A program made the translations under genes and the position numbers. A stretch of DNA of 64,000 bases from Hymenobacter volaticus. Lineage in GTDB: Bacteria; Bacteroidota; Bacteroidia; Cytophagales; Hymenobacteraceae. Location: positions 4,255,501 through 4,319,500 of the forward strand of contig NZ_CP095061.1 in NCBI RefSeq assembly GCF_022921055.1, read 5' to 3'. Below are positions 2,380 to 60,103 of the stretch, piece after piece (the stretch's first letter is position 1; the number at the start of each line of letters is the position of its first letter). The notes below the pieces were generated by a model. The model searched no databases, was not told the DNA's origin, and saw only the letters and a list, made by a program, of their open reading frames with translations.

Positions 2380-2999
2380 ATGCAACATCCTTACATCGTC
2401 GGCATCACGGGCGGTAGCGCCTCGGGCAAGACCACTTTTCTGCGCCGGCTGCTGGCCTCCTTTCCTGAAGAGGAAATTTGCCTGATTTCGCAGGACAACT
2501 ATTACCACCCGCGCGAAAGCCAGCAGGTTGACGCGCAAGGCGTCACCAATTTTGACCTTCCTTCTAGCATCGACTCAACTGCCTACGCAGCTGATGTGCT
2601 GCGCATTAGCCAAGGCCTACCTGTTCATCGGCTAGAGTACACCTTCAACAACCCCAACGCAAAGCCTAAGGAACTGGTGTTTCAGCCTGCCCCATTGTGG
2701 TGGTAGAAGGCATCTTTGTTTTCTATTTCGAAGCGGTAGCGAAACTACTTGACCTCAAGGTTTACATCGACGCCGAGGAGCACGTGAAACTGCAACGCCG
2801 CATTGTGCGCGACCGGGATGAGCGGGGCTACGATCTGGAAGATGTGCTTTACCGCTACACCAACCACGTAGCGCCCACCTACGAGAAGTACATCAAACCC
2901 TTCAAACAGGATGCCGACATTGTCATCCCCAACAACCGGCACTTCGACCGGGGCCTAGAGGTCCTAGTATCGTTTCTGCAATCCAAGATTGCAAAGTAG
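2380..2999 (+). CDS. udk: Uridine kinase (frameshifted in this sequence)
   Basis: Phosphorylates uridine and cytidine to UMP and CMP in pyrimidine salvage. The N-terminal part has the P-loop GITGGSASGKTTFLRRLL and SQDNYYHP. The C-terminal part has VVEGIFVFYFE, KLQRRIVRDRDERG and TYEKYIKP. The two halves are in different frames: the first runs into TAG at about 2704. Adding one C to the C run at 2690-2693 restores PAPIVVVEGIF and a continuous 206-residue protein, the usual family length. I read this as a sequencing deletion, not a pseudogene. Confidence 0.9.
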
Positions 3000-3153
3000 T
3001 TGCTCTGTTTGGCAGCCTTTGTGAGTTTTCAGAAAAACCACAAGGGCTGCTTCGGGTCAATGCGCTTTTGCTTGCTCAGATGGTGAGTAGCTGTAGACGA
3101 TCAGTGTGCGTGTAGGTAACGTCTGTGTTTAGTTGATTGTAGTGCCGCAATAC

Positions 3154-3360
3154 TTATTGCAAAGCAGGCGTGTTGAACGCGCTTTGCTCGAACGCCTTGC
3201 GCGTAGCTGCATTCCCGTCGCCTCCTGCAATTGATTCTATGAACCGTACCAAACAGTGTGTGCGGTTCACTTCTACTGTGGCTTGAACAGCAGAAGTAGG
3301 CTGTACAAAACCCCAAAATGTTGTTAGAAGCAGCACAAGTAGAATTAAGGCTTTTCTCAT
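3154..3360 (-). pseudogene. Short exported ORF, possibly a truncated remnant
   Basis: 68 codons with a convincing signal peptide (MRKALILLVLLLTTFWGFV) and then about 45 residues ending FNTPALQ at a TAA. In the same frame after the TAA comes VLRHYNQLNTDVTYTHTDRL, which still looks like coding sequence, before a second stop about 25 codons on. This suggests a gene broken by a nonsense change and then truncated, lying convergent to udk. Family not recognised. A genuine small secreted protein is the alternative. Confidence 0.35.
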
Positions 3361-3474
3361 ACCGATAAGTAGGCTAATAGGAACTCGACTATATATTTTC
3401 TCTTAAAAGGATTATTTCTGCGTGAATTTGCGAGGAGTTAATCAGTTATGCTTTACATGCCTTGTTGATTTGGT

Positions 3475-3482
3475 TATATTTG
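3475..3482 (+). promoter_or_regulatory. Possible -7 promoter box
   Basis: TATATTTG fits TAnnTTTG and ends 17 bases before ATG 3500. It supports 3500 as the start and makes the upstream ORF start at 3422 unlikely. Confidence 0.4.
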
Positions 3483-3499
3483 TAGCCCTGAGGTTGACT

Positions 3500-4026
3500 A
3501 TGCTGCTGCTTATTACCAAAATTTTGCCTCGCTTGCGTTTTGCGCTGCTCACAGCCACTGTGCTGTTTTTGCTGTCGCTCAACCACCAAGCCGTTGCCAC
3601 CTTCCGGGTGCCAACGAGCAAAATCACGCGCATAGGTCAGCCGGCCAAAGTAACCGTGGTGAAGCAAAAAGTGACGCTGGAAGCTGTTGGCACGGTGGAT
3701 TTGCACACTGCGCCGCAGGCCGATGCTTGGCTTCCAAACCCCGCGCCGTATAGCTGGTTGCCGGCCGTACGCCGGGCCCTAGCGGTACCGCGCCCCCTTT
3801 TAGGTATTCGTCCGGCTGCGGTGTTCCGCACCCGGCTTCTAGTGGCGGCCCTCTCGCCGCAGGCTCCCTAGCGCCGCTTGGTCTGAGCGGCCGTCCGTGG
3901 TTGATACCGTGGTGGCTATTTGTTTGTCTTGCTGTTGCGCTGGCATTTTATGGTTATCCGGCGGAGCGTTTGAGTGGCAAGACCCTCCTTTCCAAGCTTC
4001 AACATTTACTATTTATCAATGCGTAA
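3500..4026 (+). CDS. Membrane protein of unknown function upstream of secDF (frameshifted)
   Basis: The first frame encodes a signal or TM segment (about residues 9-30, FALLTATVLFLLSL) and a proline/alanine-rich region ending at TAG 3869-3871. Adding one C to the run at 3866-3868 removes that stop and continues as LAPLGLSGRPWLIPWWLFVC, then LAVALAFYGY, a clear second membrane segment, to TAA 4024-4026. The repaired protein is about 175 residues with an N-terminal and a C-terminal hydrophobic segment. Its stop overlaps the secDF ATG (AATGCGTAA), which suggests translational coupling. No family recognised. Confidence 0.55.
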
Positions 4027-7000
4027 TAAAGGACTAATCATCGGGTTGACGGTTATCGTGTCGGCCCTTTGTATCTACTTTCTGACCTTCACGTTCATTT
4101 CGCGGCGGGTACAGAATGATGCCGTAGTATACGCCACCAAAAACGGCCAAGTAAATCAGCCACTCCGTCAGCACTATCTGGATTCGGTGTGGCGGGCCCC
4201 CGTTACCAGCTTGCTCGGCGTTGACTACACTTACCGGGATGTTCGTTCTTCGGAGCTGGGCCTAGGCCTCGACTTGAAAGGTGGCATGCACGTAACGCTG
4301 GAAGTATCGCCGGTGGAAATTGTGCGCGCCATGAGCGGCAACTCCAAAGACCCCAAGTTCAACCGGGCCATCGAGCAGGCGCAGACTGCGCAGAAGGCTA
4401 ACCCTTCGACGCCGTTCACCACGCTGTTTGCGCAAGCGTACCGCGACGTAGCCCCGGCGACAACTTGGCCCGCATCTTCGCTAACACCACCAACAAAAGC
4501 CGCGGCATCGATATCAACTCCACCAACGAGAAAGTGCTTGGCGCTATCGACAAGGAAGTGGAAGAGGCCATCGACCGTTCATTCAACATTCTCCGCACGC
4601 GTATCGACAAGTTTGGTACCAGCCAGCCAAGCATTCAGCGCGTGAAAGGCACGGGCCGCATTCAGGTGGAATTACCTGGTGTAGACAACCCGGACCGCGT
4701 GCGCAAATTGCTGCAAGGCCAGGCTAAACTAGAGTTTTGGGAAGTATGGCGCCAAGACGAGTTCGGTCCTTACCTCCAGCAACTCGACCAAGCCCTGATT
4801 GCGAAAGAGAAAACCGCTGCTACCCCCGCGACAGCCGCTGCTGGCACCACTGCCAGCGCTACCGATTCGGCCGCTGCTAAAGGTGATTCTACGTCGCTGG
4901 CTAGCCAGTTAGCTAACAAGAAAGCCGCAACTACGGCCAAGGCTGATTCGGCAAAGCCACAGCAAAACTCGGTACTGGCTCGTCTGTTCACGATGCCAAT
5001 CCCGGGCCAGCTAGGTGTAAACCTGCGCGATACGGCCCGCATGAATGCCATTCTTAATTCGCAAGAAGCTCGTGCCATTCTGCCTCCTAACTTGACGATG
5101 CTTTGGAGCGTGAAGCCCGAAGTAATTGAAGGTCAAGAGTATTTGAAATTGAACGCCATCCGCAAAACGCCTGGTACTGAAGCCCCACTAGGTGGTGAGG
5201 TAGTAGCAGACGCTCGCCAGGACTACGACCAGGGTGGCCGCCCGAAGTGAGCATGGCTATGAACCCTTCGGGCGCTAAGCGGTGGCAGAAAATGACTGGC
5301 GCCAATATCGGCCGTCAGGTGGGCATCGTGCTCGACGACTATGTGTACTCTGACCCAGTGGTGCAGTCGGAAATTGCCGGCGGCAACACCAGCATCTCCG
5401 GCAACTTCTCGATTGAAGAAGCGCAAGATCTTTCCAACGTACTGAAGGCCGGTAAACTGCCCGCCCCTACCCGCATTGTAGAAGAAGCGGTAGTTGGTCC
5501 GTCGCTCGGTCAAGAAGCCATCAACCAAGGGTTGTATTCTTCGCTGGCTGGTCTGGTTATCATCATGGCGTTCATGGCGCTCTACTACGGTCGCGCTGGT
5601 ATGGTAGCCGACGCCGCGTTGCTGTTCAACAGCTTTCTGATTTTGGGCGTACTGGCGCAGTTTTCCTTCGCCCTCACGCTGCCGGGTATTGCTGGTTTGA
5701 TACTGGTATTTGCCTCGTCGGTGGATGCCAACGTGTTGATCTTCGAGCGTATTCGGGAAGAACTCGACCACGGTCTGACTTTGCACGATGCTATTGCCAA
5801 AGGGTACTCGCGCGCTTTCTCGGCCATCTTCGACTCCAACGTTACCACGCTCATCATTGCCTTGATTCTGTTCATCTTCGGAACGGGTCCGGTGCAGAAC
5901 TTCGCCGTAACGCTGCTGATTGGTATTTTCACCTCGTTCCTATCGGCCGTGTACATCTCGCGCCTGATCATTGAGTGGCTGGTGAAAGGCAAGACGGTCA
6001 GCAAGATTACGTTCTCGACTTTCCTCTCGCGGAAGCTGTTCACCAACATGAACTTCGACATCGTGGGCAAGCGCAAGATTGCCTACGCCTTCTCTACCGT
6101 CTTCATTGTAATCGGCTTCGTGCTGATGGCTGTGCAAGGTGGCCCGAACTTGGGTGTTGACTTCCGTGGTGGCCGCGCCTACGTGGTTGATTTCGCCAAG
6201 CCTGAGGTAGCATCCGATGTTCGTGAGGCTGTGACCGAAGCCTTCCAAGGCGCGGGCACCGAAGTGAAAACGTTCGGTCAGCCTACTCGTTTGCGCATTA
6301 CCACGGGCTACCTCGCCGACGATGAGAGCGTAGCGGCCGACAAAAAAGTGGAAGCTACATTGATGGCCGGCCTCAAAAAGTATGGCGCCGACAATCCACA
6401 GATCAAGAGCACCTCGAAAGTAGGCGCTACTATTGCCGACGACATCAAGCGGACTTCGGTGTTGAGCCTTGGCCTGACGCTGCTCGGCATTTTCGTCTAC
6501 GTGTTGTTCCGCTTCGAGAAGTGGCAGTACTCGATGGCGGCGGTAGTGGCCCTGTTCCACGATGCGCTGCTGGTTATTGCCTGCTTCCCGATTGCGCGCC
6601 TGTTTGGTCTGAACTACGAGATGGACCAGATTTTCGTGGCGGCGGTGCTTACCATCATCGGTTTCTCGATGAACGACACTGTAGTTATCTACGACCGGAT
6701 TCGGGAATACCTGCGGGAGAACCCCAAGCTCACGTTCGCTCAAGTAGTGAACCCGGCTTTGAACAGCACGTTCTCGCGCACCATGATTACGTTTACCACG
6801 CTGTTCTTAGTGGTGCTCGTGTTGTACATCTTTGGTGGTGAAACGCTTCGCTCGTTCTCGTTTGCAATGCTGGTAGGTATCATCTTCGGTACGTACTCGT
6901 CGTTGTTCATCGCGACGCCGATTATCCTCGATACCTACGGCCGTAAAGAAGCCCGCGAGCGTGGTACCGACCTCTCTACCAAAATTGCCGATGACGTTGA

Positions 7001-7031
7001 CGCGCCTAAGTTGTCGAAGGCTACGGTATAA
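4019..7031 (+). CDS. secDF: Fused protein translocase subunit SecDF (two frameshifts in this sequence)
   Basis: Uses the proton gradient to pull exported proteins through SecYEG. The repaired length is 1004 residues, normal for the fused Bacteroidota SecDF. Visible parts: N-terminal TM (GLIIGLTVIVSALCIYFLTF), the LGLDLKGGMHVTLEV motif, a large periplasmic P1 domain with a low-complexity Ala/Thr-rich insert (about 4800-4960), five TMs with FASSVDANVLIFERIREEL, then the SecF half with NLGVDFRGGRAYVVDF and FSMNDTVVIYDRIREYL. One C is missing from each of the runs 4452-4455 (restores VAPGDNLARIF) and 5241-5243 (restores GGRPEVSMAMN). Two disruptions in a normally essential gene point to sequence error. 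Confidence 0.93.
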
Positions 7032-7852: not shown

Positions 7853-9262
7853 AGAGCTGGACGAGCTAGTCCGGCGCAGCGCCGAGGCGTACCCCGAGGA
7901 AATTCCTCTGGGCGGCTGGTTACGCATGGAAGACAAGCTAAACAAGGCCGCAACCGACCAATTGGTGCGCCGGAAAGTAGTGCGTCTGTTTATGCTTGAG
8001 GTAGCCATAGTGGCGTTGCTGCTGCTGCTGTGGCAAGGCTACCGGATAGCAACCACGGGCACTGAAGTAGCGCAGCAGCCAGCTCGCACGACTCTGCCTG
8101 TCACTAAAAAGGCTGCAACAGTTGCTACTTCCGCGGCTTCCGAGCAAACTGCTACTACGCTGAAACCTTCGGTTAGCCCCCACACCTGGTGCCGACCACT
8201 CCGAAGGCACTTGCCAGCCCAGAAGTAGACGAGTCAGCCTTAGCATCCATTGATGCATCAGCCCCTCATTCTTCCCATCGTGTAGCAACAGCGCGCCCTC
8301 GGGCAGAAGCCCCTGACAACCTATTTATAGGTGTCATAACGCCTCGGAAACGCCAGTTGATAGCTGCCGCCGATGAAGCACAACGGAACCTAACGGTCCA
8401 GAATTCTTCCGTTGAAGCCGAAGCATCAAATAACCACCCGGCCACAAACAATGAGCTTGCAGAGGCTGACCCGCTGCTTTCCAAGGAAGTGGCAACTACT
8501 TCTACCACCACACCAGCAATTTCTCAACGACCAGAATTAGCGCAGCTACCCACGATGCCGGCTTCGGTTGCCCCTACCCTGCCGGCCCAGGATACACTGG
8601 CGCAGAAACCAGTTGTTCCAACACCTGCGCCTGATTCAACGCAAACGAAGAAGACGGAACGGCCGCGGCTCGCGCATCGATTGGTGATAGGAGTGCTGGT
8701 GGCGCCCTCGTTTAGCGCGGTACGGCGCCTAGAAACTGCTCGTTTCGGCAACGATCTAGGATTGACACTTGAGTATCGGCTAACGTCACGGCTACGGGTC
8801 CGAACCTCGATAATCAGGAGCGTAAAGCAATATGGAGCAGCTAGTTCCGACTACACCATACCCGCCTCCTGGCCTTGGCGGCAGGGCGACTACGAGGTAA
8901 ACGCCAACTGCCGCATGACCGAAATACCCCTGAATCTGCGCTTTGATGTTGTGAGCCGGCCGAAATACACTGTGTTTGCCAGCGTGGGGCTTTCCTCGTT
9001 GCTAATGCGCTATGAGTGCTACGACTACGATTACCAAGTAAATGGCCAGCCTCGAACGGCTGTTGCGGAGGTGTACAAGGGTAAAAACCATGCGTTTGGC
9101 TTACTCAACTTGTCGGGTGGCGTGGAGCGCCCGCTCGGGAGCCGCTGGTCGTTACAAGCCGAGCCGTTTCTGCAGTTGCCGCTGGGCGGGGTGGGAGCTG
9201 GAAAAGTGCGCTTGACTAGCGGAGGAGCCGCTTTTTCTGTGAAATACGGACTACTGCGTTGA
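7827..9262 (+). CDS. Single-TM protein with C-terminal outer-membrane-barrel-like domain (frameshifted)
   Basis: Starts at ATG 7827 or 7842 (MSDEELDELV). About 55 cytoplasmic-type residues precede a TM segment LFMLEVAIVALLLLLWQGY. Then comes a long Thr/Ala/Pro-rich linker and a barrel-like C-terminal domain (from about RLVIGVLVAPSFSAVRRLET to AFSVKYGLLR). The frame breaks after SVSP; one C missing from the run 8177-8181 restores SPPHLVPTTPKAL and a 478-residue protein. Proteins of this plan often follow ECF sigma factors in Bacteroidota (recalled, not searched). Function unknown. An inner-membrane anchor joined to a barrel-like domain is topologically odd. Confidence 0.65.
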
Positions 9263-11333: not shown

Positions 11334-11344
11334 CCATTTCTTCT

Positions 11345-13114: not shown

Positions 13115-13740
13115 TTAGACAGTAACGCCTTCTGCTACCACTTCTTTCACCTCGGGCACCATACGCTTGAGCAGGTTTTCGATGCCTGATTTCAGCGTAA
13201 CGGTAGCCGATGGGCAGCCCGAGCAAGAGCCTTGCAAATTCACCGTCACGACACCATCGAGGTAGCTTTTGAAGGTGATGTTGCCACCATCTTGCTCCAC
13301 GGCTGGGCGCACATAGTTATCGAGCAGGTCGATGATTTTTTGGCTGGTTTGCTGATCAGCTTCCGACGAGTCGCCGGTGGCGGCAGCTTGCTGAGCGGCT
13401 TTTTGCTCGGCAGCTGGGTCAACGATGAACACGGGCCAGCCGCCTCGATGTACGACTTCAGGAAAGTGCGCAACTCGGGGATAAGCTGGGCCCACTGCAA
13501 GTCCGTGACCTTGGTGATGGTCACGAAGTTTTGCGCAATGAACACGCGGCCTACATAATCGAAATTAAATAGCTCCTGGGCCAGCGGCGAATTAGCAGCG
13601 GCTTCCAGGTTGGGATAGTCCACGCTCACACCGTCAGCTAGCAGCTGCGAGTTGAGCACGAACTTCATGGATTCGGGGTTGGGGCTGGCTTCGGCGTAGA
13701 TTGAAACCGGTGCAGCGGGGGCAGTGAGTTGTTCAGCCAT
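13115..13740 (-). CDS. nfuA: NfuA-like Fe-S scaffold protein (frameshifted in this sequence)
   Basis: Carries and transfers iron-sulfur clusters to apoproteins. An N-terminal Nfu-N domain (SIYAEASPNPESMKFVLNS) is followed by the C-terminal NifU domain with CSGCPSATVTLKSGIENLL; the CxxC binds the cluster. The frame shifts at about 13440: one G (minus strand) is missing from a short run, and its repair reads SYIEAGWPVFIVDPA and gives 208 residues. Start MAEQLTAPAA at 13740. Known single-protein Nfu families share this two-domain order. Confidence 0.9.
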
Positions 13741-13902: not shown

Positions 13903-15257
13903 ATGCTTGCCCGTCTCACTGCTGCTTTATTTCGCCCCATTGATATTGCCTGGCTTATAGTAGCTCGTATAGGTATAGGCAGTTTGCTGGCCCTGGAAAT
14001 GGCCGGTAGCTTAGCCCTTGGCTACACCCGCGAGTACATAGAGCCACAAGTACATTTCTCCTATCTTTTTTTTGACTGGCTGCCGCATTGGTCGCCGCCC
14101 TAATCATTGCCATTCACTTGGGGGCTATCGCGGGCGGCATTGCGGTAGCAGCTGGCTGGCACTTTCGCTTGGCGGCCCTTCTCCTGACGCTCTGCTACAC
14201 ACTACTATTTCTAGCCGAAGAAACTCGCTTCATTAACCATTTCTACCTCTATTGCCTTGTAGCCGGAATGCTCGGGCTGACGCCGGCGCACCGTGCCGCC
14301 TCGGCCGATGTTCGTGCGGGCCGGGTACCACCGGCTGCCACTACACCCGCCTGGACGCGCTACTTGTTGCTGTTTCAGATGAGTTTGGTCTATTTCTATG
14401 CCGGACTAGCTAAGCTCAACGCCGATTGGTTTATGGCGCGGCCCCTCACGGTGTGGCTGGCCCCGAAAGCTCACTATCCTGTTATTGGCCCCATACTCGG
14501 GAGCAGTATCACGCCCTGGGTGATGAGCTACGCGGGCGTGGCCTTCGATCTGCTGGTGGCACCCCTGCTCTTGTGGCGCCGCACTCGGCCGTGGGCTTTT
14601 GCGGCGGCCGCGTTTTTCCACATTTCCAACGTCCTTGTTTTTGGCTTAGGTACGTTTCCCTGGTTTTCGCTATTCATAACGGCTGCGTTGTTTTTCCCGC
14701 CATCCTGGCCACGGTACACCCCCAGCCTACGCCGTTGGATAGCCACCCGCGTGCCTTTACCCGCGTCAGCCGTTACGCTTTCTGCTGCCACTATACCTCG
14801 TTATGCGCCCGTTTTGTTAACCGCGCTTGGCTTGTATGCGGTAGTGCAGGTGCTGGTTCCGCTTCGGCATTTTACGTATCCTGGTGATGTACACTGGACT
14901 GAAGAAGGCCACCATTTTGCTTGGCACATGATGTTACGCAGCAAAACGGGCTCGATTACCTACCGGGTGGTGTTGCCTAATGGCCGCATTGAAACCATTG
15001 CGCCCACAGCGTACCTTACGCCCCGCCAATACAGCAAGCTAATCGGCCAACCCGACTGTATTCTGCAATTCGCACATTTTCTAGCAGCAGATTATGCCCG
15101 ACGCGGCCTTGGCCCAGTGCAGGTTTATGCCGATTCCTACGTGCAGCTCAACCAGCGTCCTGTTCGCCCCATTGTGGCGCCCACCGTCAATCTGGCCGCT
15201 CAGCCTCGTACTCTCCAACCCTATACCTGGATAACTCCTGCCCCACCTTTAAAGTAA
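13903..15257 (+). CDS. HTTM-domain membrane protein (vitamin K carboxylase-like; frameshifted)
   Basis: Multi-pass membrane protein, 451 residues once repaired. The first segment is IDIAWLIVARIGIGSLLALE. After the break come several TMs with LFLAEETRFINHFYLYCLVA and LLLFQMSLVYFYAGLAKLNADW, the hallmark of the HTTM family (PF05090-like, related to vitamin K-dependent gamma-glutamyl carboxylase). The C-terminal about 120 residues are soluble. One C missing from the run 14098-14100 turns SPPLIIAIHLG into a stop. The role of bacterial HTTM proteins is unclear. Transcribed divergently from nfuA. Confidence 0.85.
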
Positions 15258-16518: not shown

Positions 16519-18019
16519 TCAACGTTTTCGCCACCAACCCCAGACCGCCACCCCCAGCAAAACAACCAAAATATAGTTGGCGTAGCGGCGTACGTCGTCG
16601 TAGGCATCGAGTGGTTGTAAAGTATTGTTGGCGTCGAAAAGCACATTTTGGTAGAACGGGTCGTCGCTGGGTGCGCGGAAGGTACTGGCATTGCGCACCG
16701 GCCCCGAATGATGGGCGCTAATTCAGCACGGAGCGTATCATACCGGCCAACCGTAGGATCAAAAAACACCAGACTTAGCAGACTATCGAGTTGCAACTTG
16801 CCGGGTTGGCGAGCCACCAAGCGGTAGGTGAACACCTTACGCCCACCAACCCTGCCGGCCTGCCGGGTTAGTTCTTGCTGCACATCGGGGCCGTATACCT
16901 CCAGACCTGGCTTGGGCGGCACAACCGGGGCGCTAACCGCCGCCAAGTTGCCTTCGCCTTCCACCCCGAAACTGTACGTAAAGGCCTGTCCGGTCCGAAA
17001 CGTGGTTTGGTTGACGGCCTCGCGCAGCTGGTAATGGCCCACGGGCACTAAGTCGCGCAACGGATGAGGTGGCAGCGGCTTCACCCGAATAGTGCGAGCT
17101 GTGGTCAGGTAGGTTTTATATCCTTCGAGGCGGTTGTCGAGGCCTTCCGCTGGGTTTTTGGCCAGTCGGTATTTCACCATGCGCAGCGCCACAGACGGAA
17201 AAACCAGGGGCTCGGCGTTGAGCGGGTAGTACTCAGCTTCGTAGAGACGGTAGCGCAAAAAAGGCTTACCGCCCATCGTCACCGACTCCGGCACTATCTC
17301 TTGCTCATTGAAAGGCTCTTCCCAAGCCGTACGCTGCCGCAGCTGTTGCAAAATATCGGGCAACTGTCCGGCAAAGTTGTAGAAGTCGAGCAGGCCTTGG
17401 TCGGCGGGCGTGAGGTAGAAATACAAGCCTACGTGCACGCCTTCACCCACGAAAGCACTGGTTTTGTCGGGCACTAAGGCCAGGAAGGCATTGTCTTTCG
17501 GCTCCACGTATTCCTGCGGTTTCGGTTTGCCAAATAAGTTGTCGAGCAACCCGATGCCTTGCAAGCCGCCACCCGCTGGTGTAGTGGCTCCAGCTCCGGC
17601 CGTTGGTGCGGGCCCTACCCTCACCGTCAGGCCGTTGGAGCGCACCGTCAGGCCGTTGATAGTCATCGTGAACGGTTTCACGACAATCTCGCCCTCAGTG
17701 TAAGCCGCGTAGCGCTGAGTAATGGTCAGTTCAGTGGTGGTTTGGCCTTCTACTATGCGGGTGGTTGTCGTGCTCGACTTACCACTTTTCTTGAAGCCTT
17801 CTAAGTCGGGGAAAGCGGAATAGCGCTCCAAAGCCGCCCCACGCAGCCGAAAACTGATGGTGAAATACTCGGTAACTGGAAGTGCCGCAGGCCCTAGTTC
17901 TAGCTCTGCTTGTGCTGCTGGTGCTACCCCGACGGCTTGGCCGGCTGCTGCGCACCACTCAGCGGTGGCATGAAGCAGCAGCAGGAAAAAATAATTAAGC
18001 TGAAAAGTAAACGCAGCAT
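16519..18019 (-). CDS. batD: BatD-like oxygen-tolerance protein (two frameshifts in this sequence)
   Basis: Exported protein with repeated Ig-like domains, here 500 residues after repair. The true start appears to be ATG 18019 with signal peptide MLRLLFSLIIFSCCCF. A G missing at 17927-17930 (minus-strand GGGG) shifts it into the main frame at SGVAPAAQAELELGPAALPV. The main part contains TEYFTISFRLRGAALERYSA and VGEGVHVGLYFYLTP. A second missing G at 16702-16705 restores PIIRGPVRNASTFRAPSDD, then a C-terminal TM (YANYILVVLLGVAVWGWW) and RKR to the stop at 16519. BatD belongs to the MoxR/BatABCDE set, yet the MoxR gene here lies 36 kb away. Confidence 0.8.
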
Positions 18020-27140: not shown

Positions 27141-27559
27141 TTAGGATTGATTGCCGCTTTTGCTGCCTTGGCTACCGTCGCCGCTATTATCACCGCGCGG
27201 ACTCTTGCTGGTGTGCGACGTTGGGGCGCTCGGAGTGCGCAAGTATGGCTCACAGCTTTGCCTCGCACCGATAGTAGCGCCTTGGCCGCCATCGGGAGTG
27301 GTATTTGCCTTTACTTCGTCCAAGTTGTGGTAGCGGCCCCCGTTGTTGCCGCCGTCGCCGCCTATGGTTTTGGCTATGCCATCGGTGGAGCCGGTTTCAG
27401 CTTGGCTATCGGGTGTGAAGTTGCCGTCGCCGGAACGGGTGCGGTCGTGGTGCTGCATGTTCGGATCCGGACCACCTTGGCCCATTTCGTTGCCTTCGTT
27501 GCGATACTGCTCTTCGTCATGCTCGCGGCGCTCCTGCCGACGCGACTCGGCATTTTCAT
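27141..27559 (-). CDS. Hydrophilic Gly/Asp/Asn-rich protein (frameshifted)
   Basis: From ATG 27559 the frame is lost after two codons. One A missing from the run 27553-27556 (minus-strand AAAA) gives M-K-N-A-E-S-R-R-Q-E-R-R and continues EHDEEQYRNEGNEMGQGG to the stop at 27141, about 139 residues. The product is highly charged at the N-terminus and then low-complexity (GDGNFTPDSQAETGSTDG, GGDGGNNGGRYHN), probably disordered. A plus-strand ORF over the same bases is long but hydrophobic in a way typical of an antisense shadow. Function unknown. Confidence 0.5.
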
Positions 27560-31477: not shown

Positions 31478-33972
31478 TTAAAACTTCACGCCCACCGACG
31501 CCAAGAAGTTGCGGGTGGCTTGCGGGAAATACCAGTTGAATGTTTGCTGGCGCCCGGTAGCATCGGGGTAGCCGTAGGTGTAGCCGTTGGCCACGTATTC
31601 GCGGTTGAGCACGTTGTTTACGAGCAAGCCCAACTCAATTTCCTTCACAAACGTCGGCCGGATGGCGTAACGCACCCGGAAGTCCAGCACTTGGTACGGC
31701 TTGATGCTGCGCTCCAAGCTGGCGGAGTTGTCGAGGTACTGGCGGCTGACGGTTTTGTAGAGCAGCGCCAGGCGTAGGTTCTTCACTGGCTGTCCTTCCA
31801 GCGTATGCGCCGACACGGCAGCGGGCGAGTAGGAAATGGTCGTGGTGCGAGGCTGCGCATCCACAATGGGGGTGTAGTTCTCGTCGTAGATGACGTTGCG
31901 GTAGTCTAGGATACGGTTGCGGCTCAGCGTCAGGGTGCTGCTCAAGCTAATCTTGTCGTCGGCGGAGGCAAAGCCGGTCAGCTCCACGCCCGTTCGGTAG
32001 CTGCGGGCTACGTTGGTGCGCAGGGCCGTACCCACGTCGTTCAGCTGGCCGGTAGCTACCAGTTGGTCGCGGTAGTTCATGTAGAAGTAGTTGGCTTCGA
32101 ACCGCAACGAGGTTTTGGGTCCAAGCAAGCTAGCATCAGAACGAGTGAAGCGGTAGCCTCCTTCAAAGTCTTCGAGACGCTCGGCCTTGGCGCTTTGGTC
32201 GCCGGCGGGGCGGTCGGTAAAGTCGGAGCGGACGGGCTCCCGCTGGCCTATCGCAAAGCTGGCGTAGAGTTGCTGCCCTTCGGCTAGTGCGTAGGTGGCA
32301 CCGGCTTTGGGGTTGAAAAAGGTGTAGCGGGCGCGGGTCGTTACGTCGTTCTGGTCGTCTTCTACGCCATCAATGTCGTACTCGATGTGCCGCACTTGCA
32401 GGTCGCCGTACACACCGAGCTTGGGCAATACCTGCCAGGTGGCGCGGGCGTAGGCGTTGTAGTCGGTTTTGGTGGCGTCGTTGAAGTAGTAGCGCTGGCC
32501 GATGGTGCTATTAGAAGCGTATTGCGCCCAGATTATTTCGCCGTAGTGGTCGTTGGTGAAGCGGTTCCAGGCGCCGCCTACTGTGGCCTGAAAACGGTCG
32601 TTGTCGTGGGGCTGATAGTTGAGGGCGAAGGTGCCGCCATAGAAATAGTTATCGAGCCACTTGCGGTCTACCAGGTTCGTGCGCGTGATGGTGTCGCCAC
32701 CGATAACAACATTGGCTAGGTTGTAGTCTGAAAAGCGCCGGTTGGCGCGGTAGTTTTCATAGTAGCCGAAGCCGCGGGTGAGGTGCAATGCGGCCCCAAT
32801 GTTCCAATCCTGACCTAACCCCTGCGTGAGGTGCAGTTGGTAATGGTTTTGCTGGTAGTTGTCGGTTTGGTTGTCGTAGGTGTAGTAGCTGTAGCGGCGG
32901 CCTTCCTGCTGTACTCGCGCTGCATCCGCTTCCGATAGTTCGCCGTTGTCGATGTACTGTTGCAAGAGCGCCCGGTTGCCGGTAATGGCCGGTTCGGGTA
33001 CCCCGTTCCACGCCTGATAAGTTTTCTCGCGCCCCGAAAACGCAATAAACTTCAGCAACGTGTTCTTGGCCTGGTAGCCCGCCGCAAAGTAGTACGACTT
33101 CAAATCCGAGGAAGCCCGGTTCATGTAGCCGTCGGTGGCAATGCGCGATAAACGGCCATCCACCATGAAGTGGCCGCCGAGCAGCCCGGTTCCGAACTGC
33201 ACGTTGTTTTTCCAGGTGTTGAAAGAGCCGTAGGTGTTCTGCGACTCCCCGTAGGCTTCGCGGCGGTTGTCCAGCGTCGAGATGTTGATGCTGGCCCCGA
33301 AGGCAGCCCCGCCGTTTTGACTGGTGCCCACGCCACGCTGCACTTGCAGGCTGCTAATCGACGAAGCCAGATCGGGCAAATTCACCAGAAACGACCCGTG
33401 CGACTCGGCATCGTTGAGCGGCACCCCGTTGATGGTCATGTTGATACCTGTGTTGCTCGTGCCCCTGATACGAATATCGGTGTAGCCTACACCGGCGCCG
33501 GCATCAGAGTTTACAACTACCGAAGGAGTCTGGTCGAGCAAATAAGGCAGGTCTTGGCCGAAGTTGCGCTTATTCAGCTCTTCCCGGCTCACGTTGGTAT
33601 AGGCCGTGGCCGTGCGGTTGTTGGCGCGGGAAGCGGTTACGAGGGCTTCGCCGGTGAGTACGCCCCCGGCTGCAACGTGGTACTGAGGCGCTGCTCGGTG
33701 GCCTGCCCTTGCAGGCGGCGCAACAGGGTTTCGTAGCCAAGAAACGAGACGCGCAGCTCATGCGGCCCGGCGGGCACGGCAGACAACGAGAAAGTCCCGG
33801 TGGCATCGGTGGCGGCGCTGGCCGTGCCATCGAGCAAGATGGTGGCGCCGGGCAATGCAGTGCCGGTGCGAGCATCCAATACAGTACCCAACACTGGACC
33901 TTGTGCCCAGGCCGAGGAAGAAAGCAGAGGCAGCGCCAAAAGCACAGTCCCGGAAAGCAGTAAACTTTTCAA
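31478..33972 (-). CDS. TonB-dependent receptor under TPP riboswitch control (frameshifted)
   Basis: Outer-membrane active transporter, 831 residues after repair. Start is a TTG at 33972 (KSLLLSGTVLLALPLLSSSA signal peptide, cleavage near SAWAQ); there is no in-frame ATG after the riboswitch. A carboxypeptidase-regulatory-like domain (GTVLDARTGTALPGATILLD) follows, then the plug (RIRGTSNTGINMTINGVPLN) and a 22-strand barrel ending in Phe (ASVGVKF). One G is missing from the run 33663-33667; repair reads QPGGVLTGEALVTASRANNR. Given the riboswitch, thiamine or a precursor is the likely ligand (inference from regulation). Confidence 0.9.
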
Positions 33973-34414: not shown

Positions 34415-34659
34415 ATGACCCCCCTCGTGTACTTACTTGTCGTTCTAGCTATCACGATTTATTTCTTGCTGATTCCACGGCGGCGTTACCCCAATCCGCC
34501 CCAGCCCGACAGCGACGACGACGGGGAGAACCGCTCGACGATGGCCTCCCCGACTTGGACCTTCCGCCCGGTATCACCCGCCCCATCAACGATTGGGAAC
34601 CGGATTACAACCGGCGGCCGCAACGACCCGTGCGCCCCACCGCGCCCCACCTTTCCTAA
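34415..34659 (+). CDS. Short single-TM protein with acidic/proline tail (frameshifted)
   Basis: ATG 34415 gives MTPLVYLLVVLAITIYFLLI, a TM anchor, then PRRRYPNPPQPDSDDDG. One G missing from the run 34523-34526 changes the tail: repaired it reads GEPLDDGLPDLDLPPGITRP then INDWEPDYNRRP to a stop at 34659, 81 residues. The repaired tail is far more protein-like than the unrepaired one. Function unknown. The 270-base gap before it shows no other gene; a 71-codon ORF there is not convincing. Confidence 0.5.
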
Positions 34660-36402: not shown

Positions 36403-36930
36403 TTATCTGCCTAGCAACTCATCCACCAGCTGCCGGGCTTGCTCGAAACGCTGGTCTAGCGCCCCGCTGATTATAGAGAAGTTTGCTTTCTGGTCAACTA
36501 GGGCTTGTTGGTAGACTTGAAAGAAATGCTGGCGCAAGTGCGGATGTTCGCGTAGCGGATCGGGCTCCCACGGCAAATCCACGTTCAGCAACAGCGCCAA
36601 GTCGTAGAGTTGCTGTCCGATGCGCTGCAAAATCCAGTCGGGGCAGTGCCCGAAAGCGTGTTCGGCCCACACTTTTATTACCAGTAAGTCGGTGTCGCAG
36701 AAGAAAACAGCGTGGCCTTGCGCCTGCGCTTCGGCGGCGGCTTGCTCTTCTTCACGAAGCTGGCCGCGGGCTATTTCCTCTAAGTCAGGCAAGGTATAGC
36801 TAGGGCCTTTTTCCTCTAAGTAAGCACGGGCGTACTCGGGAGCCCACGTGGTATGGTAGTGCGCCGCTAGCTGCCGGCTAAGCGTGGTTTTGCCCGTTGA
36901 CTCGGGGCCCGTAATGGCAACGCGCAGCAT
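36403..36930 (-). CDS. NadR-like P-loop kinase (AAA_28 type)
   Basis: 175 residues. Walker A VAITGPESTGKTTLSRQLAA; EYARAYLEEKG and FFCDTDLLVIKVWAEHAFG match the ribosylnicotinamide-kinase half of NadR. Expected to phosphorylate nicotinamide riboside to NMN. There is no adenylyltransferase or DNA-binding domain, so it is the kinase part only. Start MLRVAITGP at 36930 (MLKN four codons up is possible). It is 45 bases downstream of pnuC on the same strand, so transporter and kinase form a salvage pair. Confidence 0.88.
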   Translation of the reverse strand: MLRVAITGPESTGKTTLSRQLAAHYHTTWAPEYARAYLEEKGPSYTLPDLEEIARGQLREEEQAAAEAQAQGHAVFFCDTDLLVIKVWAEHAFGHCPDWILQRIGQQLYDLALLLNVDLPWEPDPLREHPHLRQHFFQVYQQALVDQKANFSIISGALDQRFEQARQLVDELLGR

Positions 36931-38129: not shown

Positions 38130-40753
38130 GTGCACTTCCCCGACCTTCCCATAACTGCTGCACTGCCAGACCTACTTTCCGCATTGGCTACGCACGAGCG
38201 GGTGGTGCTGCAAGCGCCGCCGGGCGCGGGCAAAACCACTGTGGTGCCGCTGGCCTTACTCGAAGCTGCTTGGCGCGACGGAGGCCGAATTCTGGTATTG
38301 GAGCCTCGGCAACTAGCGGCCCGCGCGGCCGCCAACCGATTGGCCAAGCTGCTCGGCGAAACCGTGGGCGAAACGGTAGGCTACCGGGTCCGGTTGGAAA
38401 GCAAAGTATCGGCCCGCACCCGGATCGAGGTTATCACCGAAGGCATCCTGACGCGCCTAATTCAGGACGACCCGGCGCTAGAAGGGGTAGCGGCGGTAGT
38501 GTTCGACGAATTTCACGAACGGAGCCTGCGGGCGGATCTTGGGCTGGCCCTCACGCTGGATGTGCAAGCCGTGCTGCGGCCTGAACTGCGGATTTTGGTG
38601 ATGAGCGCCACGCTGGAAGCCGAACGGTTAGGCAGCTGGCTAAATGCCCCTGTAGTTAGTAGCGCCGGCTTTCTGTTTCCGGTCGAGACGCACTACCTGA
38701 GTCCACGCCAAGCCGCTGTGGGCGGCACGCGGCCCGCTGAAAGAGTAGCCGCGCTGGTACCAACCGCGGTGCGCGAAGCACTTCGTACCCATTCTGAAGG
38801 CGACGTTCTGGTGTTTCTGCCGGGCCTTGCTGATTTGCGCCGGGTAGCTGACAAGCTAGAGCCTGCCCTACCCGAAACCACGCGCTTGCACCTGTTGCAC
38901 GGCGAGTTGCCGCTCGAACAGCAAGACGCGGCCCTGCGCCCTGCGCCGGCAGGCTACCGCAAAGTTGTACTCAGCACCGCAATTGCCGAAACCAGCCTTA
39001 CCATTGAGGGAGTACAGGTAGTGGTGGATGGTGGCTTTGCGCGGGTGCCGCGTTTCCAAGCCCGCACGGGCTTCACTACGCTCGAAACTGTACCCGTCAG
39101 CCAAGCCGCCGCCGATCAGCGCCGCGGCCGCGCAGGTCGGTTGGGTCCTGGCACCTGCTACCGCCTCTGGACCACCGCCGAGCACGCCGCTCTCCCTGCG
39201 CACCTGCCACCCGAAATTCTCACTGCTGATCTTAGTGGCTTGGCCCTGGAATTGGCGCTATGGGGTGCCACTCCCGCCGGACTACGTTGGCTCGATACGC
39301 CCCCTACTCCTGCCCTAGCCTTAGCCAACGACTTATTGCGTCGGCTCGGAGCCGTGGAGGCCACCGCCGATAAGCAACTGGACTCTGTAGTGAACGAGGA
39401 CTACGCTGCTTCTACCGCAATTGCCAACGTTTCACCGTCCGTTCCTATCAAGCCCACAGCCCACGGCCGGGCGCTGGCACGGCTCGGATTAGCGCCTCGC
39501 TTAGGCCACTTAGTGGTGCGAGGTCACGAACTAGGACATGGCCCGGCTGCCGCGGCTTTAGCGGCATTGCTTTCCGAACGCGACGTGCTGCGCGCCGCCG
39601 ATGCGCACCCTACCCCACCTGATTTGCGGCTGCGCTTTGAAACCATTGCGCATGGCCGCCCGGCCCTACCGGGCTTGCTGGTGCAGCACAACACGCTGCA
39701 CCGCGTCCGGGATGCGGCCCGCAATTTGCGCCAGCGCTGCGGCATCCGCGACACGGCTACCTCCGCCGATGCTGATGCGGCAGGCTTACTCACGGCTCTC
39801 ACCTACCCCGACCGTATTGCCCAGCGCGAAACCACCGACCGAGTGCGCCTCGCCACTGGTCAGCGCGTACTGCTGCCCGCCGAGTTTTTCGGCCGCGACG
39901 ATCAATTTATGGCAGTAGCGTACCTAGAAGGCCCGCCCACCAATTGCGGGCCGCACTGGCTGCGCCCGTGAGCCGCCCGGAGCTAGAGCAGCTATTTGCC
40001 GACCAGATTGAAGCCCGCGACGAGGTCCGGTGGGACGCTGCTACTGGCCGCGTGCTGGCCCGCCGCCTCCGCCGGCTCGGCGCGCTAGTGCTCTCGGACA
40101 CCCAACTCACTCAACCCGACCCCGAGCTACTAGCGCACGCGCTACTAGATGCCTTACGCACCGCCGGCATTGCAAGATTGCCGTGGAGCGAGTCGGCGGT
40201 TGAGCTACGGCAACGGTTGGCTTTTTTGCAACATCACTTCCCAAACGATTGGCCTGATGTTTCAGATGAAGCCCTAGCAGCCGAACTAGACGAGTGGTTG
40301 GAGCCACATTTGGTCGGGTTGAAGAGTCTGAACGAAGTAAGCCGGCTCGACTGGAACGAGTTGCTGCTCCAACGCCTGCCCGGTGGCTGGACCCAACGAC
40401 AAGAATTAGACCGCCTAGCTCCTTCGCACCTTGCCGTGCCAAGCGGCTCTCGCGTGGCCTTAGACTATACCGACCCTACTGCACCTGTGTTGGCTGTGAA
40501 ACTGCAAGAGGTTTTTGGCTTGCTCGATACGCCGTTTGTGGCGGCAGGCCGGGTGCCACTTACCCTGCATCTTTTATCTCCCGGCGGCCGACCGGCGCAA
40601 GTCACCCGCGACTTACGCAGCTTCTGGCAGACGGGCTACTTCGAGGTGCGCAAAGACCTGCGCGGGCGCTACCCCAAGCACCCTTGGCCCGACGATCCGC
40701 TCACTGCTATTCCAACCAAACTCACTAAAAAACGCTTCGAGGCCGGTCAGTAA
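38130..40753 (+). CDS. hrpB: ATP-dependent helicase HrpB (frameshifted in this sequence)
   Basis: DEAH-family RNA helicase, 874 residues after repair. GTG start at 38130. Motif I QAPPGAGKTTVVPLALL, motif II VVFDEFHERSLRADLGLALT (DEFH box typical of HrpB), motif III VMSATLEAERL, motif VI QRRGRAGRLGPGTCYRLW. The HrpB-specific C-terminal domain includes FWQTGYFEVRKDLRGRYPKH. The frame breaks near 39944-39945: one T missing restores GPPTNLRAALAAPV. Function of bacterial HrpB is poorly defined. Confidence 0.92.
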
Positions 40754-55856: not shown

Positions 55857-55890
55857 AGCGTAGCGGTTCACGCTGCTTGCTAGTATACCA

Positions 55891-55936
55891 AAAAAATGAG
55901 AGCGGCTTGCCATATGGCAAGCCGCTCTCATTTTTT
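55891..55936. terminator. 46-base perfect palindromic terminator, bidirectional
   Basis: A perfect palindrome centred on CATATG at 55911-55916, with AAAAAA at one end and TTTTTT at the other (inner arm GAGAGCGGCTTGCCAT). It serves the plus-strand moxR run and the convergent SDR gene. Confidence 0.95.
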
Positions 55937-55951
55937 AATTGTCGCCTGATT

Positions 55952-56836
55952 CTAATTGACCATAGTGCCGGCCGCTGCTTCCCGGATCTTGGTGTTGCCA
56001 TCTTTGGCATGCTTCAAGTTCAACTCCCCCTCTGGCTCACGGCGCAAATGGCTCGGAACATCAGCGCCGGGGGTGCCTTTAGAATTGGTGATACCACCAT
56101 CCACGAAGTAGAGTGCGCCCGTTACGTAGCTGGCTTCATCAGAGGCCAGGAACAGGTACACGTTAGCTACTTCTTCGGGCGTGCCGCGGCGGCCCAACGG
56201 TGGCGCGTCCACGTTCTGCTTCTCCATCTTGGCGCTCATCGGGCCTGTTTCCTTGTGGGTCCAAGCAGTATCGATGGGGCCAGGGCAGACACAGTTAGCG
56301 CGGACGCCGTACTTGGCCTGCTCCGTAGATATTCCCTTTACAAAAGCGTGGTTGAATGCTTTGGTGCCGCCGTAAGGTGTGTTTTCGGCAATACCCATCC
56401 AGCCTGCTTCCGAACCAGCTGTCACGATGTTGCCGTGGGTTTTCTGCAAGTAGGGCAACGCCGCGCGCGTCATCATGAAAGTGGAGTAGATGTTGTTCTT
56501 GATCATGTACTCGAAAGCATCTACCGGATACTTATCTAGTTCGGCGGTAGCCGGAAACACGCCAGCGTTGTTGATTAGAATATCCAGCTTGCCAAAATCG
56601 CTGATGGCTAGCTGCACGCATTCCTCGGCATTTTTTTCGTGCGAAATGTCGCCGAGGTAGCCTACGGCAGCTCCACCACGCCGTTGGATTTCGTCCACCA
56701 CTTTGCGCACTGGGTCGCTTTCCAGGCCTACCACCACTACGGCAGCTCCTTCATTAGCAAATTTCTTACAAATGGCTTCGCCAATGCCCGAGCCTCCGCC
56801 GGTCACAATGGCTACTTTTCCTTCAAGTCGTCTCAT
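55952..56836 (-). CDS. SDR family oxidoreductase (glucose-1-dehydrogenase-like)
   Basis: 294 residues. VAIVTGGGSGIGEAICKKFA (NAD-binding), DILINNAGVFPATAELDKYP, IVTAGSEAGWMGIAENTPYG and YGGTKAF (catalytic Tyr/Lys), CVCPGPIDTAWTHKETGPM and the C-terminal ASYVTGALYFVDGGITN. A charged tail of about 40 residues after the usual end is unusual. Start MRRLEGKVAI at 56836; the in-frame ATG at 56884 adds 16 non-family residues. Substrate unknown. Confidence 0.9.
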   Translation of the reverse strand: MRRLEGKVAIVTGGGSGIGEAICKKFANEGAAVVVVGLESDPVRKVVDEIQRRGGAAVGYLGDISHEKNAEECVQLAISDFGKLDILINNAGVFPATAELDKYPVDAFEYMIKNNIYSTFMMTRAALPYLQKTHGNIVTAGSEAGWMGIAENTPYGGTKAFNHAFVKGISTEQAKYGVRANCVCPGPIDTAWTHKETGPMSAKMEKQNVDAPPLGRRGTPEEVANVYLFLASDEASYVTGALYFVDGGITNSKGTPGADVPSHLRREPEGELNLKHAKDGNTKIREAAAGTMVN

Positions 56837-57037
56837 AGCTAAGTGGTAAATGAAATTGAGCGAGTAAAACAGATCCATCACCATTGCCTCGATTGGGCGA
56901 AGGGTAGTCTGGCTCTGAAACTAACGACATCGACTTGTCAGAGTTACTGCCACGTATTCAGCCTCGCCTTTTTTCAGCGCTAATACGTTGCTGTGCGTAG
57001 GTACTTGCATTGTTTTCCCCAAATCATACACGCCGCT

Positions 57038-57595
57038 TTGCCTCCGCCGCTCACGCCCCTTACCACTGCCCGCCTCACGCTTCGCCCTTACCAACCTACC
57101 GACGAAGCCGACTTCTTCGCCGTGCTCAATCAAGACCGCCGCCGACTGGAACCGGCGTTTCCGGCCCGCGTGGCTGCCGTGCAAACGCCAGCCGATGCCA
57201 CCCGCACTATTTCTCAATTTGCGCAGGACTGGCGCACCGGTCGCCTCTACGTGTTCGGAATTTGGCACCGCGAAACCGCCACTTACCTCGGCGACATCAG
57301 CTTGCGGCCCAGCTGGCAAACCCCTCTAACCGCTGAAGTTGGTTATTATTTGGCGGCCCACGCCGAAGGCCATGGTTACGCGCGTGAGGCGTTGGCTGCC
57401 ACTGTGCAATTCGGTTTTAGCGAACATCTACAAGCTCACTACTTAACGCTACGTTGCCGCCGCAATAATCCGCGTAGCTTGGCTGTAGCCGAGGCAGTAG
57501 GCTTTCGCCCCATCAACACTACCCGGCGGCGCATATGGCCTTTGCGCGGCAAGGAATCAGAAATCGTGCATTACCGCCTGGACCCTACTGCTTGA
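57038..57595 (+). CDS. GNAT family acetyltransferase (RimJ/RimL type)
   Basis: About 185 residues from TTG 57038 (GTG 56993 would give 200). TTARLTLRPYQPTDEADFFA is the usual RimJ-like opening. LGDISLRPSWQTPLTAEVGY, then YYLAAHAEGHGYAREALAAT (acetyl-CoA motif with G-x-G) and RCRRNNPRSLAVAEAVGFRP. No ATG lies before the domain, so the start is unusual or has been lost. Substrate could be a ribosomal protein N-terminus or a small molecule. Confidence 0.85.
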   Translation: MPPPLTPLTTARLTLRPYQPTDEADFFAVLNQDRRRLEPAFPARVAAVQTPADATRTISQFAQDWRTGRLYVFGIWHRETATYLGDISLRPSWQTPLTAEVGYYLAAHAEGHGYAREALAATVQFGFSEHLQAHYLTLRCRRNNPRSLAVAEAVGFRPINTTRRRIWPLRGKESEIVHYRLDPTA

Positions 57596-57654
57596 CAGTT
57601 CACGTGGCCCCACCTTAGCTGATGGGCAATGATAGCCCTGCTTTACTATGATGC

Positions 57655-58824
57655 TTACTCGCTTTGCCGGAGCGTACCAAGCAAAAACTCGTAATTAAAG
57701 TTTAGGTAAGCTCCGAATGAAAACTCGATCTGCTTGTTCTGCAAATCGTAAAAAGGCTCGAAACGAGTACTCAACGTAACGTTGCCGGGCAGATGATAAT
57801 CTTTAAGGAAGCGCAGAATCAATAGCTGACGCTGCCGCTCCGTGTAATTGGGATTGTTGACGGTACTGGAAATGGACTGATAGAGCTTTCCCCCCTGCGG
57901 GGCCACAAACCCGTTGCCCGACCAATAACTAATCATTACGGTGGAAAGAGGGGTGTCTACACTGGCATTGAGATATAAACCAGTGCCGCGCTTGTAGGGC
58001 AATACTTCTTCGAATGAGTAGTCAGTGAATCGGGTGACGTAGCCGTCGAAATACAGCGCTGTGGCAAACTCGGAGTTTAACCTGCGCCGCACACGCACGC
58101 CGGTAGCAAAGTTGAATAGCGTTTGCAGCGGGACATCAATGGTGTCGAGTTGGCCACCATGATGAATCGCCAAGAATTGCAACGGCACCACTCCTACGCG
58201 CCAGCCCGACGAATCCTGATACGCCGTGAATTCAGAGGTGAGCCCACCAGCTACTTCTTCTTGAAAATTACTGTACCGATACTGTTGCCGCTGCCAATCC
58301 ACCCAGGCATCGAGTTGCAAGCGCGACGTCTGCAGCCGATACTGCATGCCTTCCTCTAGCCTGTTGAGCATCACCCGCTCGAAATCAAATAGAGGCTCTA
58401 TGTAGCCATGGTTCAACTGTCCTTCAATATTGCCGAACAACAAACTGTGTGGGCCGTTCTGATATTTAGCCGTAAACACTGGTCGTACCTGTCGCAGTCG
58501 GGGTGTACCATAGTCTTTGTAGAGAAAAATACCCGCCTCTAACCGCAGATTACCGCTCGGAAAGTAAACCAGACGGGGGGCAAGCTGTGTTCCATAAAGG
58601 GTTTTGCCTTCGTTTATCTTGTTGAAATACTCGTTGTCCTTGGAAAACAAAAACCCTTGCACTGCCACCCGAAGCTGCCCACTATTCTCGGGCTTGATAG
58701 GTAAACGGTATACAAAGGCTTGATTGTTCAGTTGACCCCAAGCTGCATTCAGGCCTCCCAACCAGCTTACCAACGTCAGTATCAAGGCGGTAGAAAACGA
58801 GCTATTTCCTAAAATTTTTAGCAC
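57655..58824 (-). CDS. Outer-membrane beta-barrel-like protein, unknown function
   Basis: 389 residues with a signal peptide (WLGGLNAAWGQ). Strongly alternating strands throughout, for example LAPRLVYFPSGNLRLEAGIF, PVFTAKYQNGPHSLLFGNIE and RLQLDAWVDWQRQQYRYSNF; ends AYLNFNYEFLLGTLRQSE. It appears to form a large single barrel. Family not recognised. Transcribed divergently from recA. Confidence 0.7.
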   Translation of the reverse strand: MLKILGNSSFSTALILTLVSWLGGLNAAWGQLNNQAFVYRLPIKPENSGQLRVAVQGFLFSKDNEYFNKINEGKTLYGTQLAPRLVYFPSGNLRLEAGIFLYKDYGTPRLRQVRPVFTAKYQNGPHSLLFGNIEGQLNHGYIEPLFDFERVMLNRLEEGMQYRLQTSRLQLDAWVDWQRQQYRYSNFQEEVAGGLTSEFTAYQDSSGWRVGVVPLQFLAIHHGGQLDTIDVPLQTLFNFATGVRVRRRLNSEFATALYFDGYVTRFTDYSFEEVLPYKRGTGLYLNASVDTPLSTVMISYWSGNGFVAPQGGKLYQSISSTVNNPNYTERQRQLLILRFLKDYHLPGNVTLSTRFEPFYDLQNKQIEFSFGAYLNFNYEFLLGTLRQSE

Positions 58825-59012
58825 AGAAAAATTTCCCTAAATTCAACGAAAATTTTTAGCATTGCGGGGACAAAATATAGGTCAGTGACGTTACCACTAG
58901 CCTACCCCAAACAGAGTAGCTTGGCACGTTGCGAAGCCACTTCTGGGTTGCGCAGGCAACCTAAAACGCCTACATTCACCAAACCTAAGCATTTCCCCCA
59001 AACCCTATTCTA

Positions 59013-60103
59013 ATGGCTGCTACTACTGACAAAGCCGATAAGGTTGCCAATCCTCAAACCGAGAAATTGAAGGCCCTCCAGCTCACGCTGGATAAGCTCG
59101 ATAAGAACTACGGCAAAGGAACGGTCATGAAGCTGAGCGACAACAAAGTTGTTGACATTCCGGCTATCAGCACCGGCTCACTAGGCCTCGACATTGCGCT
59201 GGGCATCGGGGTCTGCCCCGCGGCCGTGTGGTTGAGATCTACGGTCCAGAATCGTCGGGTAAAACTACGCTCACGCTGCACTGCATTGCCGAAGCCCAAA
59301 AGAAAGGTGGCATGGCCGCTTTCATTGACGCCGAGCACGCCTTCGACCGCAGCTACGCCGAGAAGCTAGGCATCGACACCGAAAACCTGCTCATCGCGCA
59401 GCCCGACAACGGCGAACAAGCCCTTGAAATAGCCGACCAGCTGATTTCTTCAGGTGCTATCGATATCATCGTTATTGACTCCGTAGCTGCTCTCGTACCG
59501 AAAGGTGAATTGGAAGGCGACATGGGCGACTCGAAAGTGGGCTTGCACGCCCGCCTCATGAGCCAGGCCCTCCGTAAGCTGACCGGTACTATCAACAAGA
59601 CAGGCTGCTGCTGCATCTTCATCAACCAGCTTCGCGAAAAGATCGGTGTGATGTTCGGTTCGCCCGAAACCACCACCGGTGGTAACGCGCTAAAATTCTA
59701 CGCTTCGGTTCGCCTCGATATCCGCCGCATCGGTCAGATCAAAGAAGACAAAGACAACGTAACCGGTAACCGTACCAAGGTGAAGGTTGTGAAAAACAAA
59801 GTAGCGCCACCATTCAAAGTGGTGGAGTTCGACATCATCTACGGCGAGGGCATCTCGAAAGTGGGTGAAATCCTTGACCTCGGCGTTGACATGGGCATCA
59901 TTGCTAAGTCGGGCTCGTGGTTCTCGTACAACGGCGACCGTCTGGGCCAAGGCCGTGAGGGTGTGAAAACCATCTTGCAGGACAACCCCGAGCTTGCCGA
60001 CAAGATTGAAGCTCAGATCCGCAACTTGGTGAAAGGTGAGCCCGAAGTAGCGATGGCGGCCATTCCGGTAGACACTACTGTTGAAGACGACGACACGCTG
60101 TAA
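59013..60103 (+). CDS. recA: Recombinase RecA (frameshifted in this sequence)
   Basis: Forms filaments on single-stranded DNA for strand exchange and SOS induction. The frame breaks at 59208-59211: one G missing from a GGGG run. Repair reads [20 protein letters not shown], then the Walker [21 protein letters not shown]. Also seen: [60 protein letters not shown] and [20 protein letters not shown]. The repaired length is about 363 residues, normal. A frameshifted recA would be strongly deleterious, so this is almost surely a sequence error. Confidence 0.95.

Follow-up and report, generated by a model that had tools for sequence, protein, structure and literature searches.

A 64-kb window of the Hymenobacter volaticus genome (G000:C1:4255501-4319500) raises a simple question: do the broken reading frames of recA, secDF and several neighboring genes belong to the organism or to its published sequence? 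The window, by which we mean this whole stretch of DNA, lies on a 5.31-Mb contig of a 7.13-Mb assembly in 10 contigs (completeness 97.3%, contamination 1.4%). The original prediction, made from the letters of the window, listed 14 single-base deletions in 12 genes and ascribed them to raw long-read error. When the window was compared with intact proteins of its nearest relative, 12 of these sites, in 10 genes, were retained. The breaks almost certainly stem from errors left in the consensus of a long-read assembly, so that the attribution to error stands in substance, though these would not be raw read errors.

One-base losses at G and C runs in the window

The closest relatives found were Hymenobacter sp. 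YC55, H. norwichensis, and H. telluris, with 97-99% amino acid identity over the C-terminal 594 residues of SecDF; this SecDF-based search may omit records of the window's own genome. DNA identity between the window and YC55 was 86-90% in three blastn blocks over the first 17 kb, and coding indels were therefore easily placed. YC55, whose contig is named "spades," served as nearest relative, with its intact proteins as reference. Open frames from YC55 were run against the assembly with a protein-to-DNA aligner that permits one- or two-base frame changes. The same aligner was applied to five genomes against each other, in both directions, on the stretches compared, and to a longer stretch of 279 kb. 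Further relatives (G023, H. norwichensis; G009, H. telluris; and G002) were used for cross-checking. A model of coding potential that works without alignment to a relative, hereafter the reference-free model, was also used; its training set was drawn from relatives' loci and included YC55. Genes were named by scanning the intact YC55 proteins against NCBIfam and Pfam, except that the TonB-dependent receptor was named from the window's own downstream part.

All 12 confirmed breaks were one-base losses at a G or C run in the alignment to YC55 proteins. The runs are three (four sites), four (six sites), or five (two sites) bases long. Runs of at least three G or C hold 6.3% of coding bases and runs of at least four hold 1.6%, so that 12 of 12 breaks at runs of at least three, all in one direction, is beyond chance. 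The check suggested with the prediction, alignment to the closest Hymenobacter genomes, found at least one relative one base longer at 12 of the 14 sites, the exceptions being 3866 and 27553. Nine of the 12 recurred with at least one of G023, G009, and G002 (Table 1). Two breaks had been placed slightly off: that in the nfuA-like gene, given as 13440, and that in hrpB, given as a T at 39944-39945, which the alignment moves to a neighboring C run.

Each YC55 protein aligns over its full length, with a single base lacking at every break, at 92-100% amino acid identity (78% for the barrel protein), and no further stops interrupt the broken window genes, which argues against decay. Apart from its break, the 98-amino acid small protein is 100% identical to that of YC55. 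The open frame of the downstream part of secDF is 610 amino acids here, against 994-1077 in the best matches from the same genus except G003; secDF has one close match in the assembly, and recA a single match. As a separate observation, one of two secDF copies in G003 (G003:C1:3029349-3031112) has an open frame of only 655 amino acids, the second copy having 992.

It had also been claimed that no site required the removal of a base. This holds against the YC55 proteins, which show no one-base gain in the window. Three gains did appear against the three other relatives (846, 16423, and 63431), at residues 16, 39, and 19, near protein starts, and YC55 does not support them. The greedy gene set holds some spurious open reading frames (ORFs), since ORF lists are rich in antisense and out-of-frame ORFs; losses at 999, 13884, 24812, 49288, and 50032 and stops at 36405, 46241, and 56981 lie upstream of likely starts or in spurious ORFs and were not counted. 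Some further events against the three other relatives were likewise left out of the count.

The reference-free model called 14 events in the window. Nine coincide with confirmed sites, one is a start-codon case at 27552 described below, and four (7804, 20799, 35261, and 48937) lie at gene ends or overlaps and have no counterpart in the YC55 alignment. The model missed three confirmed sites (8177, 14098, and 17927).

Table 1. Breaks confirmed in the window and two sites that proved not to be breaks.
Feature	Position in window	Strand	Observation	Relatives	Family match
udk (uridine kinase) break	2690-2693	+	C run, one base short	YC55, G023, G002	NCBIfam uridine kinase, slightly below cut-off; PF00485
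secDF, first break	4452-4455	+	C run	YC55 and further relative(s)	NF009585 (SecDF)
secDF, second break	5241-5243	+	C run	YC55 and further relative(s)	NF009585 (SecDF)
"Barrel protein" (481 amino acids) break	8177-8181	+	C run; 78% amino acid identity	YC55 only	None in NCBIfam or Pfam scans
nfuA-like iron-sulfur scaffold gene break	13433-13435	-	Run, G on + strand	YC55 and further relative(s)	Pfam Nfu_N and NifU
HTTM-domain gene break	14098-14100	+	C run	YC55 only	PF05090
batD, C-terminal break	16702-16705	-	Run, C on + strand	YC55 and further relative(s)	PF13584
batD, N-terminal break	17927-17930	-	Run, C on + strand	YC55 and further relative(s)	PF13584
TonB-dependent receptor break	33663-33667	-	Run, C on + strand	YC55 and further relative(s)	PF00593, PF07715
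Small transmembrane protein (98 amino acids) break	34523-34526	+	G run	YC55 only	None in NCBIfam or Pfam scans
hrpB helicase break	39936-39938	+	C run	YC55 and further relative(s)	TIGR01970
recA break	59208-59211	+	G run; residue 66 of 363	YC55 and further relative(s)	TIGR02012
Small protein 3422-3871, natural stop	3866-3871	+	Not a break	Stop shared with relatives	None in Pfam scan
Small protein gene, run	27553-27556	-	Not a break; start codon differs instead	YC55	

Because the barrel and small transmembrane proteins lack a family match, their labels remain those of the earlier reader.

The losses extend beyond the window

The YC55 alignment over 279 kb around and including the window covered 207 genes and 212.8 kb, and contained 38 one-base losses, two one-base gains, one two-base loss, and two stops. 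After curation, 35 losses in 31 genes and no gains were accepted. All 35 touch a G or C run of three to seven bases, and at 18 of them the extra base in the relative is the run's own base. The site at 8177 stands outside the 38, its protein being only 78% identical. Three losses were set aside: one at offset 117758, upstream of the aligned ATG; one at offset 213475, which is next to a five-G run yet falls within a divergent N-terminus, at residue 24; and one at offset 171434, taken up below. Two of these three touch no G or C run of at least three. Both gains were also set aside, one lying upstream of an ATG and the other in a doubtful 85-amino acid ORF, and neither the two-base loss, which falls in the same doubtful ORF, nor the two stops were used.

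In the reciprocal test, YC55 showed 19 gains against one loss. Relatives compared with each other gave zero to three one-base losses and zero to two gains per pair, whereas pairs including this assembly gave 11-37 losses and one to four gains (uncurated counts, 39-165 kb aligned). The loss rate rose with the inferred true run length, taken as the length seen plus one, from 10 of 676 runs (1.5%) at four to 17 of 133 (13%) at five and six of 17 (35%) at six. Where flanks match YC55 exactly, G/C runs were shorter here in eight cases against three, which are small numbers. The run-length spectrum was also tried as a stand-alone test and rejected as too weak.

The reference-free model showed the same excess. 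Over 16 stretches totaling 364 kb, of which two share a little sequence with the window, it called 65 losses against 21 gains. A further 80 kb of the chromosome contig gave 15 against eight, and 180 kb sampled from the nine other contigs gave 50 against 18, none of these nine showing fewer losses than gains. Single 20-kb stretches of the chromosome contig varied from zero to eight losses. False calls at gene overlaps give the model a background in which losses and gains are equal: it yielded parity in 64 named loci (0.77 losses and 0.76 gains per 10 kb), and on YC55 it called six losses against 12 gains in 220 kb and nine against 10 in another run. The spread over the assembly is judged from sampled stretches, about 0.6 Mb of the 7.13 Mb. 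Contigs C2-C10 (101-330 kb) may be plasmids; a cluster for heavy-metal RND efflux, with about 80% identity to Hymenobacter plasmids, lies in positions 1-20000 of C2 (330 kb).

Indispensable genes are split by the same loss

Outside the window, the same kind of loss splits rpoC, the genes for ribosomal proteins S10, L3, and L18, ftsH, and pyrH. Second copies were sought for rpoC and S10. Both lie in two pieces in different frames; rpoC has no other match in the assembly, and S10 (rpsJ) has no other copy and is whole in the three relatives searched. A growing bacterium cannot do without rpoC, S10, and the like. The prediction had pointed to recA and secDF as genes the cell can hardly lose; rpoC and S10 add such genes beyond the window. 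A search for rpoC in 101 congeners found a match in 100; among the matches listed, G054 and G100 were cut at contig ends and G108 (two contigs) was also in two frames, so that a split rpoC is rare and not unique.

These genes bear on the explanation that the broken genes are true pseudogenes, produced by real one-base slippage deletions under relaxed selection or in a mutator background such as one lacking mismatch repair. The breaks are indeed present in the sequence as given. Runs are favored by replication slippage too, which could in principle rise where recA or a mismatch-repair gene is broken. The splitting of rpoC and rpsJ with no second copy would not be tolerated by a growing cell, however, and the intact remainder of the broken window genes gives no sign of decay. 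Slippage should also strike A/T runs of six to eight and yield gains as well as losses, and neither is in excess. In the genes examined, A/T runs of that length outnumber G/C runs by 74 to 12, yet in the exact-flank comparison A/T runs were shorter here in four cases and shorter in YC55 in six, with no bias, and the mixture of gains and losses that slippage predicts is absent from the accepted set. We consider true pseudogenes highly improbable.

Could the breaks be genuine and the frame be restored at the G/C runs, through transcriptional slippage or ribosomal frameshifting? Rescue of this kind in homopolymer tracts has been proposed or shown in insect endosymbionts, DNA replication genes included, and has been proposed for poly-A/T tracts in Blochmannia and Buchnera (PMC3017870). 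As in the account of Blochmannia vafer given there, short indels at homopolymers break the frames of conserved genes here. That account, however, concerns poly-A/T tracts in an AT-rich endosymbiont, with many runs of at least nine, read as real mutations (PMC3017870), whereas the window belongs to a free-living genus and its G/C runs are three to five bases long. By inspection, with no formal motif test, no shared context was seen beyond the run. In YC55 a single open frame spans each site, and this mostly holds in the relatives for secDF, recA, and rpoC. Moreover, secDF and batD would each require two such events. Rescue therefore seems more improbable still than true pseudogenes. Its broadest form, a genome-wide recoding in which hundreds of real G/C-run losses, in essential genes too, are restored by slippage of RNA polymerase or the ribosome and are absent in sister species, is less credible again.

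That this region alone is poor, through low coverage, a collapsed repeat, or a contaminant, is the least probable explanation of all: secDF and batD do have two breaks each and the window is denser (12 in 64 kb against 36 in 279 kb, or about 1.3 per 10 kb), but the excess of losses recurs in the pooled chromosome-contig stretches and in the pooled other contigs, gene order is as in YC55, and the secDF stretch has a single place in the assembly.

Residual consensus error as the favored explanation, and its probable source

Sequencing error is the one reading considered that fits all the tests, and they support it. We consider residual consensus error almost certain because the losses run in one direction, are confined as accepted to G/C runs, depend on run length, are spread over the sampled stretches of the assembly, have no excess in the relatives compared, and hit indispensable genes. 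The true DNA would then carry longer runs: at genomic G/C runs of roughly four bases upward, one base would sometimes be dropped from the consensus, which would shift the frame of an otherwise intact, conserved gene.

Because the pattern resembles published nanopore errors, we consider nanopore sequencing, with older chemistry or little short-read polishing, the probable platform; another long-read platform is possible. In nanopore data, C and G runs are sequenced worse than A and T runs, increasingly so with length (PMC8486125), and the Homopolish paper reports 151-5298 pseudogenes in nanopore consensus genomes and, in one isolate example, a residue of errors dominated by deletions (PMC8011154). 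The present assembly shares homopolymer indels, poorer C/G runs, and false pseudogenes with the nanopore-only assemblies described there. It differs in its low rate, the restriction of the accepted losses to G/C runs, and the many runs of four or five. The Kastor paper likewise finds deletions to be most frequent where a run of four to five precedes, with the genes then fragmented and called pseudogenes (PMC12007338), as here; A/T runs are the most error-prone in its example, and G/C runs in ours. In the library searched, no paper joined Hymenobacter, a complete genome, nanopore, and frameshift.

Several points weigh against consensus error as the cause. The breaks were judged from sequence comparison. 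The base that YC55 carries at the lost position differs from that of the run at 17 of the 35 accepted sites, where the lost base need not belong to the run, and the loss set aside at offset 171434 lies outside G/C runs. Long G/C runs (at least six) are only mildly depleted, at 6.1 versus 11.4 per 100 kb. The modelled coding fraction of the other contigs is low, down to 0.48, and part of their excess may therefore be real decay or model misfit. The assembly also has an intact rpoB, as is expected when only some genes are hit. From the literature, run lengths below five are quite well estimated in nanopore reads (PMC8486125), insertions exceed deletions after Medaka in another Homopolish example (PMC8011154), and one Kastor example has more A/T than G/C deletions (PMC12007338). 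Loss at G/C runs only, at lengths of four to five, is therefore not the standard signature of any single platform.

Two sites that are not breaks

The supposed break in a membrane protein at 3866-3868 is a natural stop. Four relatives (YC55, H. norwichensis, H. telluris, and G002) show no indel there, and all have the same TAG stop at the end of a small protein that finishes in PQAP. A codon pattern for this stop region matched 34 of 79 scanned sequences, namely the window and 33 other loci, and in these the residues ahead of it align in the same frame; that the final four residues and the stop agree follows from how the pattern was built. The small protein lies upstream of secDF, and a similar C-terminus ending in PQAP is present in the 33 relative loci. 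A short inverted repeat (3872-3891) directly follows the stop, and its arms co-vary in H. norwichensis and H. telluris (four sequences). It is possibly a terminator or attenuator, and may have resembled a new reading frame to the earlier reader.

The second site, the A run of a small protein gene at 27553, aligns to YC55 gap-free with an identical four-base run. What differs is the start: the ATG of the 145-amino acid YC55 gene reads ATA in the window, at about 27578 on the minus strand, through either a real change or a substitution error. A reader seeking a start codon would therefore jump frame at 27553, and the reference-free model made the same jump.

Consequences and similar signals in other Hymenobacter genomes

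The confirmed breaks are not a biological feature, and they matter solely for data quality. False pseudogenes, among them recA, secDF, rpoC, and ribosomal protein genes, are likely in the annotation of this assembly. Analyses of gene loss, completeness, or selection built on it would mislead, and the assembly is unsuited to claims of gene absence.

Similar breaks occur in three congeners, and few-contig Hymenobacter genomes therefore merit a frame-break check before absences are inferred. In Hymenobacter sp. BRD67 (L048, NZ_CP053904; completeness 94%) and H. qilianensis JCM 19763 (L098, NZ_CP060784; completeness 93%), rpoB is split. Each shows two losses of a single base, at or next to G runs, without any gain, and the reference-free model called six losses to one gain in BRD67 and five to none in JCM 19763; G005 and G010 were matched to these records by contig coordinates. 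In G108 (C2:659741-664074), rpoC is divided between two frames, in pieces that overlap, perhaps through the same kind of error.

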